Virus record (IMG/VR): IMGVR_UViG_3300021479_000013
Coordinates: 18,400-82,399 of that record
Strand: one strand, 5' to 3'
From: a virus
DNA length: 64,000 nucleotides
The notes beneath the pieces were generated by a model. That model made no database searches, was not told where the DNA came from, and saw only the letters and a program-made list of their open reading frames with translations. Within the stretch, counting starts at the first letter, position 1. Each line of letters begins with the position of its first letter. Below, in pieces: positions 18,291-42,267 of this stretch. The translations under genes and the position numbers were made by a program.

Positions 18291-18568
18291 AGTGCTGCCT
18301 CCGAGTACGCGTAATCTTCGTTATTTCCGAAGTCAATACGGTCCAGGGGGTCATCGTCTGTTCTCTCGTATGACAGAAGACAGATGGAGTGAAATACGGA
18401 AATAGTTCTAATTATGCCCGATTCGGGACCGTCGTCTGTCGGGTCGTAAAACGAGTTAGGGCGTTCGCAGTAGTCGAAGTGTACGCTTGTTCCCGTCTCA
18501 GCGGCATCAAGCTCGAGGTTGATCAGCGTAATGTACCTGTCCAAGTCTTGTCTCTGTCTAGCGTCCAC
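18287..18568 (-). CDS. hypothetical acidic protein, 93 aa
   Basis: GTG start after AGGAGG, overlapping the 46-aa gene by 11 nt; the stop overlaps the next start. Contains D-L-D-R-Y-I-T-L-I-N-L-E-L-D and a D/E-rich tail. No known fold. Confidence 0.65.
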   Translation of the reverse strand: MDARQRQDLDRYITLINLELDAAETGTSVHFDYCERPNSFYDPTDDGPESGIIRTISVFHSICLLSYERTDDDPLDRIDFGNNEDYAYSEAAL

Positions 18569-30197: not shown

Positions 30198-30226
30198 TTG
30201 ACAACAAGGGGAAACTGTGGTAGGAT
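30198..30226 (+). promoter_or_regulatory. rightward promoter upstream of the zinc-ribbon gene
   Basis: TTGACA (30198-30203), 17 nt, TAGGAT (30221-30226), extended by TGTGG. Start of transcription would be about 3 nt before the ATG at 30236. Confidence 0.8.
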
Positions 30227-30423: not shown

Positions 30424-30798
30424 ATGACCACGTATCAGCAATCTAACTTGCCTTTTGTCGGTAACGCAGCACAGAGATACCCCATTAAAGACCTCTCGCA
30501 GTTCGTTTGCAGGGGGCTGTACTTCAACGATGACAACATCGAGTTCTTCATGCAAGGCGCTGGCAAGGTTCTGTTTTCACAAAGCACCCCGGCGCTGGTA
30601 GCTCCCGGAACACTGACTGTCACAGGCTTCACCCTGCCACAGCAGTCGACTCCCGGAACGTTCGCGTTCGACTGGTCTGTTAAGGACTCAGACGGCGTAG
30701 TGCTGGCCACCGGTTCGTGTGCAGGCACCTGGATGCAGTTCGCCTTCGGCGGATACTATCATCCTAAGCTGTTGACGAACTCTTTGACCGTCAACTAA
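30424..30798 (+). CDS. beta-rich hypothetical virion-type protein, 124 aa
   Basis: ATG 30424 after AGAGGTGACT. T-L-T-V-T-G-F-T-L-P and F-A-F-D-W-S-V-K-D-S-D-G-V-V give a beta-sandwich look, like the decoration proteins at 33-34 kb. Unknown. Confidence 0.6.
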   Translation: MTTYQQSNLPFVGNAAQRYPIKDLSQFVCRGLYFNDDNIEFFMQGAGKVLFSQSTPALVAPGTLTVTGFTLPQQSTPGTFAFDWSVKDSDGVVLATGSCAGTWMQFAFGGYYHPKLLTNSLTVN

Positions 30799-31039
30799 AT
30801 CAATCCCGCCTGTCAGGGCAGTCGTCTAGGACGCAGTACTGACCATCTGCCCCGTATGGCCGTGAGGCGACGGGCGCAAATTTACAGGGCGGCAGGAGCA
30901 TCACTGTGCCGTCCTCAATTTTCTAACCGAGCCGACTTGTCTGTCGGATAAGACACTCGGGGCAGAGCACCCACGGGCCTAGTCGCCGCAAGGCGGGTAA
31001 AGGTTGCTCTTCGAAAGGCCCAAACTTTCTGCCCATCGC

Positions 31040-31124
31040 TGGGCTGTGGCTCAACTGGTACAGCAGGTGACTGTTAATCACCCAGTGCGAAAGCACATTA
31101 CAGGTTCGAATCCTGTTGGCCCAG
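31040..31124 (+). tRNA. tRNA-Asn(GUU) with a long variable arm
   Basis: Acceptor TGGGCTG/TGGCCCA with G discriminator, anticodon arm GGTGA-CTGTTAA-TCACC (anticodon GTT at 31073-31075) and T-arm ACAGG-TTCGAAT-CCTGT. The variable loop is 17 nt and holds GTGC-GAAA-GCAC, instead of the usual 5 nt for tRNA-Asn. A CA follows rather than full CCA. It sits within the large RNA region. Confidence 0.85.
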
Positions 31125-31474
31125 CAATGAGCAGAACAATTTTAGAGACTGGTGCTGCCGGACTAGAAGGACGTTATCCGGGCGAGTCTCTGAAGGCGTT
31201 GTACAACAGAGAGAACAAAAAATCCCAGGGTAGCTCCCGTGGGCCTGTATCCTCGCTAGGATAAGTTCTCTCGCTCATCAAAAATGAGCCAAGCGCGTAG
31301 GGACCGCGCGCTGATTAAATAGTCCCTCAATTTTGTAGTTTGGGAAGTAGGCGTCAGGTATAAAGGCATAACCCGAGCGCCCTCGACAACCCAAACGTGT
31401 CTACGATTTCGGGGCCAGTGTGCAGCGTAAGCTGGCAGCGTGAGCCGATTAGCGACTCGTAGCCCCGACCTCTT

Positions 31475-31521
31475 TACCCTTATAGTACCCGTTAACCAGC
31501 TTAACGACCACTATAAGGGTA
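31475..31521 (+). other. 12-bp hairpin before the 28-aa gene
   Basis: TACCCTTATAGT pairs with ACTATAAGGGTA; inside, GTTAA-CCAGC-TTAAC. It ends 19 nt before the ATG and has no T-run. Confidence 0.85.
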
Positions 31522-31540
31522 CATAAGTTCAGGAGCAACG

Positions 31541-31627
31541 ATGTCAATCATATTTGAATTGATCGGAGGCGTGCTGTTTTTTATCTTGCTCGCCTCGTGG
31601 CTCTTCAAGTCGCCTAAGGGCGAATAA
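31541..31627 (+). CDS. tiny membrane protein, 28 aa
   Basis: AGGAGCAACG before ATG 31541. M-S-I-I-F-E-L-I-G-G-V-L-F-F-I-L-L-A-S-W-L-F is one membrane helix, then K-S-P-K-G-E. A 12-bp hairpin (31475-31486/31510-31521) lies just upstream and may control it. Confidence 0.65.
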   Translation: MSIIFELIGGVLFFILLASWLFKSPKGE

Positions 31628-31630
31628 ATT

Positions 31631-31800
31631 TTTCACTCCCGGTAAATCTATAAGTCGGAACTGAGAAGCCGAGCCGGGACAATTTTTACCGTTCTCTGGA
31701 TAGTCCCGACTTCACAGTCTGCTGGAATACCAGTCATGAGGGAGAACAATTGAACACCCACGGCGGGTCTAGAAAACCTGTTTAACGTGGTGGAGTTCTT
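31631..31800 (+). ncRNA. second structured noncoding segment
   Basis: No gene seen in 170 nt. CGGTAAA (31640-31646) pairs with TTTACCG (31685-31691), AAGTCGG (31651-31657) with CCGACTT (31706-31712) in a crossing (pseudoknot) way, and a CTGG-AATA-CCAG hairpin follows. It precedes tRNA-Ala. Confidence 0.4.
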
Positions 31801-31810
31801 TAAAATTTCT

Positions 31811-31884
31811 GGGCTGTTAGTTAAGCGGGATAACGGTTGCCTTGCACGCATCAGTCAGGAGTTCGATTCTCCTACGGTCCACCA
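31811..31884 (+). tRNA. tRNA-Ala(UGC), CCA encoded
   Basis: Acceptor GGGCTGT/ACGGTCC with the G3-U70 wobble that alanyl-tRNA synthetase reads, D-arm GTTA/TAAC, anticodon TGC (31843-31845), T-arm AGGAG-TTCGATT-CTCCT, A discriminator and CCA in the genome. One T-T mismatch in the anticodon stem. Confidence 0.9.
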
Positions 31885-31901
31885 ATTTGACTCGGTGACA
31901 T

Positions 31902-33606: not shown

Positions 33607-34215
33607 ATGGCAAACGGAAAGTGCAAGTGCGGTGTCGACTATACGTTAGAGAATTCGACTTCAACTGTTTTCAAAAGACAGCAAGGATTCTGTCGCTCGT
33701 GTGACGAGACCTATCAGAAGCAGTATTATTTAGACAGGTCTGAAAGAATTAAAGAAAGGTCTTGCAAATGGGCACGAAAGAATAAAAAGAAGCGACTAGT
33801 GATTGCCATGAAATACTGGGACACTCAGTCAGTTGAGACGCGGGCATCACACAACAAAAAGGTCGTTGCTCAGTATCGCTTAAAGAAATTTGGTATCTCT
33901 CAAGAAGAGTTTGATGCCAAGTTTGAAAGTCAGAAAGGTCTTTGTAGCATATGTGAACAACCTATGCTAGCTGGCGTTCGTAAAAAGATTCCGTGCCAAG
34001 ACCACAATCATGACACTGGTGAACTTCGAGATTTGTTATGCAGCAGTTGTAACCTATTGATAGGTAATTGCTGTGAAGATGAAAAAATTTTGGTAGGTGC
34101 TATTAAGTACTTACGAAAGCACAAAAGCGGTAGTTCGATCAAAACTGCTCTGTGCGGATTGACAGAACTTAATTCTGTACTCTCCGAAAGCGTTTTGTCA
34201 GCGGCTTCCCGTTGA
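33607..34215 (+). CDS. HNH/EndoVII homing endonuclease
   Basis: 202 aa. Two CxxC-type pairs at the start (K-C-G-V and C-R-S-C), then C-S-I-C-E-Q-P near 115 and Q-D-H-N-H-D-T-G-E-L-R near 132 with L-L-C-S-S-C-N, a full EndoVII zinc/HNH site. Base composition is clearly AT-richer than neighbours. It splits two decoration genes. Confidence 0.88.
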   Translation: MANGKCKCGVDYTLENSTSTVFKRQQGFCRSCDETYQKQYYLDRSERIKERSCKWARKNKKKRLVIAMKYWDTQSVETRASHNKKVVAQYRLKKFGISQEEFDAKFESQKGLCSICEQPMLAGVRKKIPCQDHNHDTGELRDLLCSSCNLLIGNCCEDEKILVGAIKYLRKHKSGSSIKTALCGLTELNSVLSESVLSAASR

Positions 34216-37939: not shown

Positions 37940-40165
37940 ATGTCAGAGGAATTTGAACTAGATAAAAAGCCGAAGTCCACCAGCACCGAACGAATGAGAG
38001 CCTTACGCGCCCGCGAAAAGGCGGCAAAGGTCTCAGAGATCGACAAGGCTGATAGGGAGTCGGCGGTCCAAAGGCTCCTCGACGAAGTTGCATCCCTCGA
38101 CAAAGAGGGCAAGAGATTCAAAAGCGAGGCCCGCAGCTACACTCAACTTGTGCGTCTGTATTTCGGCCAGCCCGAAACAGGAGACGCAGATGATGAGGCA
38201 GGCGAGAGCACGGACAAAAAGGGTAAGAAGGACAAACGTCCCAACCCTTCCGAAACTAGGATTCGCATACAGGATTCCAACGTTGACCCCACTAACCGTG
38301 GCAAGGGAAGACGCCGTCGTTCAATCGAAGATATAACCTTCGAGGTCGATGACGTTGTCAGCTTCTGGCGTTGGCTAGACCTCCGAGATCGGTCTCGTAA
38401 AGATTTGTTCTGGCTAGGTCGACTGCTTGGCAAGGGACTATATCGCTCCGTCCACCAGATTACCTGCGACCAGTTCGTAACGAAAAATTTCGGTGGACCG
38501 TGGCTTAACTTAGACGGCACCGTTGACAAGTCTCGTGAGCCTATCGAGTCGATGTATTTTGACGGGTATACACTCGATGACTTTCATGACATGATCGAAG
38601 ACCATCACGCTCACAGAGATCGCGAGATGATGCTTCTTGATAGTCGTGGATTCTACAAGTCAACGATTGACGGGATTGATTCGGTGCAGTGGATGCTCAA
38701 CTGCCCCGACGTTCGCATCCTCATTATCACGGGTGAGTACAAACTCGCCGTAGCGTTCGCACTAGAAATTAAAGGCTACTTCAACCTTTCAGAAGGCCAG
38801 GAGCCAACCGCTTTTCATTTACTGTTTCCAGAATACGTCCTCAGAGGCGTAGACGGAACCTCAAAGGAACCTCTGTTCTGTCCCGCCCGACTTCTAGATC
38901 AGAAGGAGGGTTCGGTCTGGGTTAACTCGATTGTCGCTAACCTCTCAGGTTGGCACTGCGATGTCAAGAAGGGTGATGATATCGTCACCGACGAGAACTC
39001 GAACAGCGAAGAGGCCCGCGAAAAGATTAAGGTCAAGTACGACGGTACCGATGACCTGTTAGACCCTCACGGGTTTATGGACCACATCGGCACCCGGTAC
39101 TTCACAGACGATTGGTATGGCACCCGGCTAGCTCCTAACGCGGAGACAGGCGAGGTTGCACCGATAAAGTATCACAAGCGCGGTTGCTGGACTGTTAAGC
39201 CAGAATATGCCGAGGTACCCATCCTCCTATTGAAGGAAGAGATGGTCACCCTGAATTTCCCCCAACGTTGGGGATTCAATAAACTACGCTCACTGCTTCT
39301 CAAAAAGGGCGAACGATTTTTCCGAAACCAGCAGCTCAACGAGCCATCCGATGCCGCAGAAGACAGCGGCTTCAAGATCAGCTTCACCGAGGCCGACCTT
39401 CGCGCGCACATGTACCAGCGCGAGGCAGCGCCAAAGTCAGGCGACATCTATATCGTTTGGGACTGGGCTCTTTCGGACAAGAAGACATCAGACTATTCAG
39501 TAGGAGTAGTAGCACGACTTTACAAGAACGACGCGAACGAGTGGGCCTTCGTTATCCTAGAGATCGTCTACGATAAGTGGAAGTACACAGAACTCGCATT
39601 TCAAATCGTCGCACTATCAAAGCGTTACGGCCCGAAAGTTACGATGATCGAGGCATCAAACGCATACGACCAACTAAGAGATGAGATCACCCGAGTCGGT
39701 CAACGACAGGGCTATCAACCTTACATCTACTGGAAACAGCCGTCGCGAGAAGAGAACGCGAAGCGCAACCGAATCAAGAGCATTGAAATTCTGCTGGCAC
39801 AACACCGCTTGCACTTTATACTTGGCTCTTGGATAGACGAAACCTTTAAGCAGTTCACGCAGTACACAGGCGAGAAAAAGAACAAAGGCCGAAAGGATGA
39901 TATCCCTGACAGCATTTCTTACCTACTGTACATCCTTCCTTCAGAGGCACGACCGCTAATCGATAAGGTCGACCCAGAAGAAGAAAAGAGATTGGCAGAA
40001 GAGCAGCTGAAACATCAGCGCAAGTCGCAGCAATACGACAGATACTTCGGCCAGCAACTACAGACAAAGACAGAAGCGGGACCGACTATAGTTGAGGTCG
40101 CTCCTCCCAAGCCGCAAGACCCGAGGATGCGAATCTTCGGCAATAAGGGACCGTGGAGATTATGA
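37940..40165 (+). CDS. terminase large subunit
   Basis: 741 aa. Walker A-like L-D-S-R-G-F-Y-K-S-T near 231, V-R-I-L-I-I-T-G strand, and a C-terminal RNase H-fold nuclease with V-W-D-W-A-L near 511, T-M-I-E-A-S near 570 and D-D-I-P-D near 654. It packages DNA at the portal. The N-terminal 130 residues are charged and may replace a separate small subunit. The stop overlaps the portal start. Confidence 0.85.
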   Translation: MSEEFELDKKPKSTSTERMRALRAREKAAKVSEIDKADRESAVQRLLDEVASLDKEGKRFKSEARSYTQLVRLYFGQPETGDADDEAGESTDKKGKKDKRPNPSETRIRIQDSNVDPTNRGKGRRRRSIEDITFEVDDVVSFWRWLDLRDRSRKDLFWLGRLLGKGLYRSVHQITCDQFVTKNFGGPWLNLDGTVDKSREPIESMYFDGYTLDDFHDMIEDHHAHRDREMMLLDSRGFYKSTIDGIDSVQWMLNCPDVRILIITGEYKLAVAFALEIKGYFNLSEGQEPTAFHLLFPEYVLRGVDGTSKEPLFCPARLLDQKEGSVWVNSIVANLSGWHCDVKKGDDIVTDENSNSEEAREKIKVKYDGTDDLLDPHGFMDHIGTRYFTDDWYGTRLAPNAETGEVAPIKYHKRGCWTVKPEYAEVPILLLKEEMVTLNFPQRWGFNKLRSLLLKKGERFFRNQQLNEPSDAAEDSGFKISFTEADLRAHMYQREAAPKSGDIYIVWDWALSDKKTSDYSVGVVARLYKNDANEWAFVILEIVYDKWKYTELAFQIVALSKRYGPKVTMIEASNAYDQLRDEITRVGQRQGYQPYIYWKQPSREENAKRNRIKSIEILLAQHRLHFILGSWIDETFKQFTQYTGEKKNKGRKDDIPDSISYLLYILPSEARPLIDKVDPEEEKRLAEEQLKHQRKSQQYDRYFGQQLQTKTEAGPTIVEVAPPKPQDPRMRIFGNKGPWRL

Positions 40166-42267
40166 GCGATATCGATCAGCAGATAGCGGGATTAGAAACG
40201 GAAAAGGCCAACGAGATCACTACGGAAAATACGTACATCGACTCGCAGACTGGGACCGTTCAGTTTAACGACACTGCTGCGATTAACCTCGTTCTCAGTA
40301 ATACGGAACTGGCAGACAATTTCATCAACATCAACCAGTGGGCGAGCGGTTGGACCATGTCCGACCTGTTGTATCAATCGCCCATCTCGACCAGCAACTA
40401 CGACACCGGAACCGACGTAGCAAATTCGGCGGTACCGAAGTTCATGGTCTCAAATCACATCAGCTCCATCGTCCCGAAGCTGATGGGCGGAATCTTCTAC
40501 GAAGACCCGTGCTTCCTCCTTCGCGGAAGTCCAGGCACCACGCCTGAGGTCATCCAAGCTAAGACCGCGATGTTCACGTTCCAACTCAAGGCCATGCGCT
40601 TCGAGGAAGAGATCGAACGCGGGCTAGAGCAGATGGCCCTCCTCGGAACGGCTATCTGGAAGTGGGGATACACCGAGTACAATACGAAAGAAAAGAAGTA
40701 CAAGCGTTACGCGCCGAAGGTACCAGCACCGGACGGAATCGAGACGACCCCGATTGACACGCCGGACTCAGACGACTTCGAGATCGAGTTCTACCCCAAG
40801 ACCGTATCACACCCTTGGATTAAGTTTTGCGATATCCGCACGGTCCTTGTGGACCCAGGCTGTCGCTTCGGAGACATCCGTACAGCGAAGTGGGTTGTCT
40901 ATCGCGACTACGCGACCTACCAAGATTTGAACCGTCTTCGAGGCATCGAAGGCTACAACATCCCGAGCGAAGAAGTCCTCCGCAGGATGTTCGAGAAGGC
41001 AACGTCACCAGGGCCTGACAACATTTCTATGACCATCCCGGAAGGGATGATGGGCTACCTGCAGCACGCGAAGCCCCGTAGCTACAAGACTTCGGCGGAC
41101 CCGAACAGGGCACCCCTGGAACTCTTGGAGCATTGGGATGACGAGAAGGTTATCGTTGTCCTGATTTACAACGGCCACAACATTCTAATTCGCAACGAAG
41201 CCAACCCTTACTCGAAGATTCCTTTCTACTCGGCTAACTGGCGCAATATCCCTGACAGCTTTTACGGACAGGGCCTCGGCATGCTAATCGGCAGCGAGCA
41301 AATCGTGGAGCAGGGTGTAACCAACCTCGCGCTAGATTTGCTGGCTTACTGCTTGCAACCAGTGGCACTACGCAAGAAGGGCTTCAACGCGCTCACACAA
41401 AATACGCGGTGGGAACAAGGCGGCATCATCGACGTCGAAGAAGACGTTGATAAGGCCTTCAAGTTCCTCCAGATGCCTCCAGTTCCAGCGGAAGCGTTCT
41501 CGTTCATCCAGCAGTCACAGTCCGCTGGCGCGGCAACATCAGGCGCTAACGAGCAGGTGGTTCAGGGCGCGGGTCACGCGGGCATCAGCACAACGGGCAT
41601 GAGATCGGGCACGGGCGCGGCGGCGGTTGTCCAAGCCAACGCGAGCCGTCTCGACGGACCAACCGGAAGATTCGTACGCCAAGTATTCGAACCCTGGATG
41701 CACCAGATGGACGAACTCGACAACGATTTGTTGCCGACGTCGGTCATCAAGGAAGTCCTGGGCGAGAAGATCGGCAACGACTTCAAGATGGACCACATCC
41801 TTTACCGCAACGCGAAGATGGAGTACGAAGTTCTCGCGGGAGCAAATCTAGGCGCTAAGAAAGAAATGGCCCAGGCCCTCCCAATCATGATTCAACTTTT
41901 GAACAACCCCACGTTCGTGGCAAACGCCAACGACGCGGGATATCAGTTCGACGCCGTTGCTATCTTCCAAGCGTTCACCGACGCGGCAGGCTGGAAATTC
42001 TCCCAAGCCTTCCTCCGTATTATGACGCCGGAACAGAAACAGAAGCACGACGCGAACAGCCCTGCAGCAATGCAAGCAGCGCAGCAGAAGAACGCGACTG
42101 TAATGCAGCAGCAGAAGTTCGAACAAGAACAGACGATGGAAAACCAGAAGCAACTCGGCAAGGCTGGCAATGAGGCCTTCCGTTCGTCCATAGAAAAATC
42201 AACATCGCCTGAACTATCAGGCGGGCCCGAACAGACACAAGGTTTCGGAGCCACAACCGCATTATAA
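40162..42267 (+). CDS. portal protein
   Basis: 701 aa from ATG 40162 (ATGA overlap; an upstream start at 40153 is weaker). Long N-terminal wing, W-K-W-G-Y-T-E-Y near 170, G-Q-G-L-G-M-L-I near 370, then helices and an acidic/Gln-rich tail that could be the barrel. This size fits podovirus-type portals. It forms the dodecameric gate next to the terminase. Confidence 0.8.
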   Translation: MSDIDQQIAGLETEKANEITTENTYIDSQTGTVQFNDTAAINLVLSNTELADNFININQWASGWTMSDLLYQSPISTSNYDTGTDVANSAVPKFMVSNHISSIVPKLMGGIFYEDPCFLLRGSPGTTPEVIQAKTAMFTFQLKAMRFEEEIERGLEQMALLGTAIWKWGYTEYNTKEKKYKRYAPKVPAPDGIETTPIDTPDSDDFEIEFYPKTVSHPWIKFCDIRTVLVDPGCRFGDIRTAKWVVYRDYATYQDLNRLRGIEGYNIPSEEVLRRMFEKATSPGPDNISMTIPEGMMGYLQHAKPRSYKTSADPNRAPLELLEHWDDEKVIVVLIYNGHNILIRNEANPYSKIPFYSANWRNIPDSFYGQGLGMLIGSEQIVEQGVTNLALDLLAYCLQPVALRKKGFNALTQNTRWEQGGIIDVEEDVDKAFKFLQMPPVPAEAFSFIQQSQSAGAATSGANEQVVQGAGHAGISTTGMRSGTGAAAVVQANASRLDGPTGRFVRQVFEPWMHQMDELDNDLLPTSVIKEVLGEKIGNDFKMDHILYRNAKMEYEVLAGANLGAKKEMAQALPIMIQLLNNPTFVANANDAGYQFDAVAIFQAFTDAAGWKFSQAFLRIMTPEQKQKHDANSPAAMQAAQQKNATVMQQQKFEQEQTMENQKQLGKAGNEAFRSSIEKSTSPELSGGPEQTQGFGATTAL

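Follow-up and report, generated by a model that had tools for sequence, protein, structure and literature searches.

Genomic setting

The window, by which we mean the whole stretch of 64,000 nucleotides analysed here, corresponds to positions 18,400–82,399 of an 82,399-base IMG/VR virus record. It carries tailed-phage genes, including those for the terminase large subunit (37940–40165), the portal (40153–42267) and endonuclease VII (33607–34215), as well as three tRNAs at 31040, 31811 and 32592. The source is a soil phage, and the RNA described below is carried by a group of soil tailed phages. No close annotated phage was found, megablast of the surrounding 25 kb against annotated phages giving no match, and a blastn search of 50,697 phage records with the region returned tRNA matches only. 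The terminase matched named phages weakly, with 22–27% identity for the best matches among the records listed.

Fifty relatives were collected from IMG/VR via the terminase. The closest homologue (L028, hereafter G015) is a 75-kb phage that carries the same RNA and whose terminase protein is 40% identical to that of the window's phage (G000). Both phages have three tRNAs, compared with 20–33 tRNA genes in arrays of relatives (e.g. L203:3798–9050). Judged from these genomes, the translation set has been gained or lost on a large scale inside one phage lineage.

A non-coding region built from separate modules

The initial annotation had described 30800–31530 as a gene-free region with one large candidate RNA of about 730 nt and an embedded tRNA, possibly a divergent member of the GOLLD or ROOL families or a new class. 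The following features were assigned in and near this region:

30198–30226, plus strand: candidate sigma-70-like promoter, TTGACA-17-TAGGAT with TG before the second hexamer (10/12 in a consensus scan)
30805–30882, plus strand: 5'-most module, a possible pseudoknot weakly indicated by the sequence (GUCAG 30812–30816 / CUGAC 30840–30844 crossed by GGGCAG 30817–30822 / CUGCCC 30848–30853)
30886–30917, plus strand: hairpin GGGCGGCA/UGCCGUCC, 97% identical to G015 (L028:3564–3597), fold z −2.9
30925–31026, plus strand: 5' domain with two interlocked pseudoknots, whose helices G015, G028 and G008 preserve through compensatory changes
31027–31136, plus strand: tRNA leader and trailer with a possible acceptor-stem extension (UUCUGC 31027–31032 / GCAGAA 31131–31136), an inverted repeat unchanged in G015
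31040–31125, plus strand: tRNA-Asn(GUU), its variable arm (GUGC-GAAA-GCAC) unusually long (ARAGORN; Rfam RF00005, 51.7 bits)
31146–31193, plus strand: small inserted hairpin around the motif GGACUAGAAGGACGUUA, dispensable and missing from G015
31198–31327, plus strand: 3' core, the family-defining domain (covariance model R1, covariation, palindromes)
31328–31470, plus strand: candidate 3' extension of two helical modules (31337–31406 and 31409–31468; fold z −1.7 and −1.0), of uncertain membership
31474–31525, no strand assigned: near-perfect 52-nt hairpin with no T run, ahead of the next small ORF, fold z −7.1

In agreement with the description as gene-free, the region is non-coding. Its sole overlapping ORF (31004–31264, 86 aa, TTG start) spans the tRNA and is disrupted, in the comparison with G015, by indels of ~43 nt and 1 nt, so that a protein-coding reading was rejected. 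The 731 nt fold more stably than dinucleotide shuffles (z −4.4, with 0/20 shuffles as good); however, the reverse strand reaches z −6.9, which is partly owed to the long hairpin at 31474–31525 (z −7.1). Hence folding energy alone is no proof of a plus-strand RNA, and the case for such an RNA, made by sequence comparison, rests on the homologues instead.

The promoter candidate is weak when taken alone, since the consensus scan found 3 sites where 2.2 are expected by chance. A TTGACA..TGTGGTAGSATGG block is also present upstream of the tRNA arrays of relatives, and we infer that 30198–30226 is the likely transcript start.

The minor modules vary between phages. The module at 30805–30882 is missing from G015, while a diverged similar element (GUCA/UGAC, UGGC/GCCA), judged by eye, lies 5' of tRNA-Pro in L136. 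G015 lacks the hairpin at 31146–31193 and bears a different insert elsewhere, which suggests that hairpins are gained and lost at fixed points. The near-invariant GGACUAGAAGGACGUUA is found with unrelated outer stems in the window (31146–31193), L006:4040–4075, L010:17089–17121 and also L011; this hairpin looks mobile, occupying differing locations in three phages, once between late genes. Downstream of the core, the ~200 nt at 31328–31530 have no alignable homologue, and 31328–31470 could not be aligned to G015. The complementary stretches UCGGGGC (31409–31415) and GCCCCGA (31462–31468), in a part where crossing helices had been proposed, do exist there, likewise with no alignable homologue. 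The hairpin at 31474–31525 is possibly the 3' boundary of the RNA or a DNA-level inverted repeat.

The 3' core defines an RNA family

The core consists of four helices, H1 (31209–31216/31265–31272), H2 (31224–31230/31236–31243), H3 (31249–31253/31258–31262) and H4 (31273–31278/31284–31289), followed by an H-type pseudoknot at 31293–31326, in which GCGCG (31293–31297) / CGCGC (31305–31309) is crossed by GGGAC (31300–31304) / GUCCC (31322–31326). A covariance model, R1, was built from eight tRNA-rich relatives, with neither the window nor G015 among them. Its match in the window lies at 31200–31334 with 73.6 bits (E=5.3e-18), and it detects 14 distinct phages in all, the window's and 13 others. 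In a 14-row alignment, which was fitted to the model structure and is therefore biased towards it, the six helices (both pseudoknot stems included) are 98.0% paired, compared with 75.0±1.4% in shuffles, and in 22 of the 29 pairs both partners have changed. The alignment has a covariation score of 0.584, compared with 0.157 for shuffled alignments (0/500), and the score drops to 0.03–0.08 when the partner strand is slid. The second pseudoknot stem, which was absent from the R1 structure, is 98.6% paired.

Compensation is also seen directly between the window and G015, where GCGCG/CGCGC becomes GCGCC/GGCGC and GGGAC/GUCCC becomes CCCGG/CCGGG. The H-type pseudoknot that had been proposed at 31292–31327 is exact in the sequence and kept by compensatory changes in homologues. 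The window is assigned to the family by the core structure, H1–H4 with the H-type pseudoknot, found there with compensatory changes.

The window shares with G015 96/102 aligned bases of the 5' domain and 97/98 of the core as far as the pseudoknot, compared with 70/86 in the tRNA-Asn and 138/185 in a neighbouring ORF. As the two RNA parts are nearly identical while the terminases share 40% of residues, strong selection on the RNA is indicated.

In the tRNA-rich relatives (at least 10 tRNAs) the core lies upstream of tRNA-Leu(UAG), which, where present, is the next downstream tRNA. Just 3' of the core, an element with a T arm followed by a D arm, resembling a permuted tRNA, was observed at L139:2706–2806 and L185:1381–1480 (minus strand). 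Its matches to the Y-RNA-like family YrlA (E 7e-4 and 0.24) are both far below the cut-off; a similar order of arms is visible in L136.

The family seems confined to one phage lineage in the collections searched. Pattern scans of viral contigs gave the two closest phages and several chance matches, among which the L054 match was rejected as protein-coding, and a further such scan contributed nothing beyond a near copy of a member already known. The 41 stretches found in a scan of genome contigs were taken as chance, because the 16-base pattern is short. R1 was also run on 297 whole genomes from the bacterial phylum to which an Acidobacteriota MAG belongs, and gave no match. The Tunturiibacter phage Tunturi_3, the top-listed named phage by terminase (27% identity), had no R1 match and no meaningful match to R2, the model of the 5' domain described below. 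The same phage (PP885686.1) shows a match to the permuted tmRNA family RF04321 at L198:39673–39897 (minus strand; 63 bits, cut-off 47), which is missing from the feature table of the record.

A 5' domain with two pseudoknots and an intervening tRNA

The 5' domain of about 105 nt is closed by an outer helix, CCGAG (30927–30931) / CUCGG (30956–30960). This encloses a first pseudoknot, PK1, in which CCGAC (30932–30936) / GUCGG (30943–30947) is crossed by UGUCU (30938–30942) / AGACA (30951–30955). In the second pseudoknot, AGAGCA (30964–30969) / UGCUCU (31005–31010) is crossed by GGGCC (30975–30979) / GGCCC (31017–31021). A hairpin at 30984–30995 is capped by the GCAA tetraloop, located at 30988–30991, that had been listed for the region.

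The model R2, which covers 30923–31035 and was built from three phages with G008 left out, finds this fourth phage at E=1.7e-7, in the same place, immediately 5' of tRNA-Asn. All six helices are kept in the four phages with compensatory changes, the outer helix, both PK1 stems, the second helix and its crossing helix included. Examples are AGAGCA/UGCUCU against GUCAACA/UGUUGAC and GGGCC/GGCCC against GGGCU/AGCCC, and in PK1 CCGAC/GUCGG of the window is CCGCU/GGCGG in G015. The helices were compared segment by segment, as the MAFFT alignment A5 misplaces G008 there. The H-type pseudoknot predicted at 30932–30955 is also exact and accompanied by compensatory change, and the covariation in homologues that had been suggested as a check is strong. 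Taken together, comparison of the sequences shows a conserved RNA structure with a 3' core in at least 14 phages and a two-pseudoknot 5' domain in four.

The embedded tRNA was confirmed as tRNA-Asn(GUU) by both ARAGORN and Rfam, and it is 82–90% identical to the tRNA-Asn genes of relatives. Its long, GNRA-capped variable arm is kept in several relatives (86–88 nt), and others have the normal 75-nt form; in bacteria, long variable arms are normally found in Leu, Ser and Tyr tRNAs.

The order 5' domain, tRNA-Asn, core is common to G000, G015 and G008, and the core is present downstream in all four phages bearing the 5' domain. Generally, zero to several array tRNAs, and even ORFs, separate the two parts in relatives; L136, for example, has other tRNAs and an insert containing an ORF there. 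As 10 of the 14 core-bearing phages have no detectable 5' domain and L136 carries these inserts, the tRNA-Asn is one of the usual tRNAs of the phage array, with an RNA module on either side, and there is no firm case for one molecule of 730 nt. Of the initial description, the ornate, folded, gene-free region around a tRNA holds, while its extent as one RNA is doubtful: the modules (~105 and ~130 nt) are separate, array tRNAs lie between them, and 31328–31530 is the part with no alignable homologue.

Palindromes in the core

In all 14 cores a palindrome of 8–10 nt ends right before a conserved AG, with which H1 starts. This 5' tract has four sequence forms, GUUGCAAC, GUUGUACAAC, GUCGCGAC and GUUCUAGAAC; the window carries GUUGUACAAC at 31198–31207. 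A second palindrome, of 6–8 nt, directly precedes the UGGU loop on H3 in all 12 cores having this loop, in five forms (GUCGAC, GUGCAC, GCUAGC, GCAUGC and CUCAUGAG). The window and G015 keep the first palindrome, whereas the second, present in the other 12 of the 14 phages, is replaced together with the UGGU loop by a 4-nt CGCU loop. Hence these two compact genomes retain one of the two proposed contacts at the most. The palindrome background in these loci is 0.28% per position for 8 nt and 1.1% for 6 nt. The chance of the distinct palindrome forms is ~1e-10 each if they are independent, an estimate inflated by kinship, as all belong to one phage lineage.

Because an 8-nt palindrome cannot fold stably on itself, its halves should pair between molecules. 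By its sequence, the RNA is probably able to pair with itself, forming a homodimer via the palindromes.

Searches for known RNAs

At gathering scores, Rfam identified only tRNAs in the window, and at E<=10 it gave nothing relevant in 30750–31900, with no GOLLD, ROOL or RNase P match. The proposed membership of GOLLD or ROOL was not borne out: neither RF02032 nor RF03087 matched at E<=10. For GOLLD, this holds for 16 phages (the window's and 15 relatives) as well as for 30750–31900. ROOL likewise gave no match at E<=10 in the 16 phages; the control genomes were equally silent, so the negative result for ROOL rests on the search of 30750–31900 and on structure. The option of a new class is supported, as no Rfam 15 family fits. 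Identity with RNase P RNA was rejected on the basis that the region of the window and G000 have no RF00010 match, and a tmRNA was rejected as neither Rfam nor ARAGORN called one in the region. The literature searched holds no description of this RNA, and one elsewhere is conceivable.

Several relatives carry an RNase P RNA of their own (RF00010) in the array, for instance at L139:3929–4218, L137:2418–2683, L143:409–722 (minus strand) and L142:2629–2955. It was found in 13 of 15 phages at 66–102 bits, one only passing the 100-bit cut-off, and in several it lies between tRNA-Cys and tRNA-Lys, its specificity domain largely missing or replaced. No report of RNase P RNA in such phage tRNA arrays was found in the literature searched.

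Alternative explanations

The structures could act in cis within the array, serving as folded spacers or as processing elements by insulating neighbouring tRNAs, directing RNase cleavage or shielding the polycistronic precursor, with no function once processed. Their packing fits such a role: in relatives the core lies just 5' of tRNA-Leu(UAG), in several phages with ~8–9 nt between pseudoknot and tRNA, its 5' side abuts tRNA-Pro in L137 and L138, and A/U-rich linkers are common to modules and tRNAs. However, the window's phage and G015, which have lost tRNA-Leu and retain just three tRNAs, still carry the RNA, and it is better conserved than the tRNA it encloses. This retention weakens the spacer explanation, loop sequences and palindromes are maintained to a degree that a spacer would not require, and we regard a cis-acting role as unlikely. 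Somewhat more weight, though still short of an even chance, is given to the view that the 5' domain and the core are two or more small RNAs in their own right, tRNA-sized, separately processed and functionally unrelated, mere neighbours in the array. The many cores with no detectable 5' domain (10/14) and the separation of the domains in relatives by one to four tRNAs or ORFs point this way; the presence of the core downstream in all four phages with a 5' domain, and the order with tRNA-Asn in between that G000, G015 and G008 have kept, argue against it.

Two relationships to known RNAs appear far less probable. The core could supply tRNA-elbow recognition in trans to an RNase P RNA whose specificity domain is reduced, as a part or relative of a phage RNase P system. 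The RF00010 matches in 13/15 phages tested do largely miss model positions ~113–200, and the core has ACAG/GGUAA stretches; the resemblance of its ACAGAGAG and GGUAAGG stretches to the conserved regions CR-II and CR-III of RNase P is a lead only. Yet the bases after the core ACAG pair in H1 and change freely with compensation, whereas CR-II is conserved and unpaired, no RNase P RNA match was obtained in the window's phage or G015, although both have the RNA, and such a match is absent from 30750–31900. A role of this kind is thus very unlikely. Even less credence is given to a highly divergent GOLLD or ROOL RNA. It would account for the phage origin, the tRNA array, the tRNA that separates a variable 5' part from a conserved 3' one, the pseudoknots and the predicted self-association (PMC12286853), but neither model found a match at E<=10 in the 16 phages or in 30750–31900, and the entire conserved core of ~130 nt compares with model lengths of 416 and 574.

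Proposed role

The RNA is best read, from its comparative sequence evidence, as a new family of structured non-coding RNA in phage tRNA arrays. We consider it rather probable that this tRNA-array RNA acts in trans as a stable, self-associating RNA, working like GOLLD and ROOL but outside both families. It would be co-transcribed with the tRNAs from the upstream candidate promoter and could be released by the same tRNA-processing enzymes, as suggested by the A/U-rich linkers that often flank the modules like those flanking tRNAs. The freed, stable RNA would then act in trans, two copies pairing into a kissing-loop homodimer by the palindrome with which the core begins and, in the majority of phages, by the palindromic hairpin loop. 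By analogy with GOLLD and ROOL, one may speculate that a self-assembling RNA scaffold or container is made during infection. A bolder version, to which we assign a low probability, is a protein-free homo-oligomer built as a tRNA-array module from two symmetric palindromic contacts, which in two compact genomes is joined, around a tRNA, to a second pseudoknot domain, and which in assembled form would transport or protect the phage's tRNAs while the host is taken over.

To our knowledge, only a handful of large ornate phage RNAs such as GOLLD and ROOL have been described, and their purpose is open. If self-association of the present RNA is true, a further, sequence-unrelated family would make homo-oligomeric RNAs a recurring phage solution instead of two oddities. 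With a core of only ~130 nt and natural, compensated palindrome variants, dimerisation could be tested with short transcripts and with swaps between phages.

Comparison with known systems

The palindromic loop resembles the retroviral dimer-initiation (DIS) kissing loop in being a hairpin loop with a covarying 6-nt G-N4-C palindrome, and GUGCAC occurs in both; the likeness of mechanism is by analogy only and implies no relatedness. Bacterial RNase P RNA class A (RF00010) lies in the same tRNA arrays in 13/15 relatives, where it is a separate gene. GOLLD forms a 14-mer cage and ROOL an octameric nanocage. GOLLD is found near phage tRNA islands, has a conserved 3' and a variable 5' region, sometimes with tRNAs in the linker, and is a homo-oligomer with conserved intermolecular contacts (PMC12286853). 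ROOL is a large ornate, self-assembling RNA with several pseudoknots, found in phages and prophages near tRNA islands (PMC12286853). The new family is similar to GOLLD in being phage-borne and near or containing tRNAs, here with tRNA-Asn between the domains and tRNA arrays in the relatives. It differs from GOLLD in its core of ~130 nt with an H-type pseudoknot and four helices, its palindromic dimer tracts, its constant location in tRNA arrays and its occurrence in one phage lineage, and from ROOL in its helices and length.
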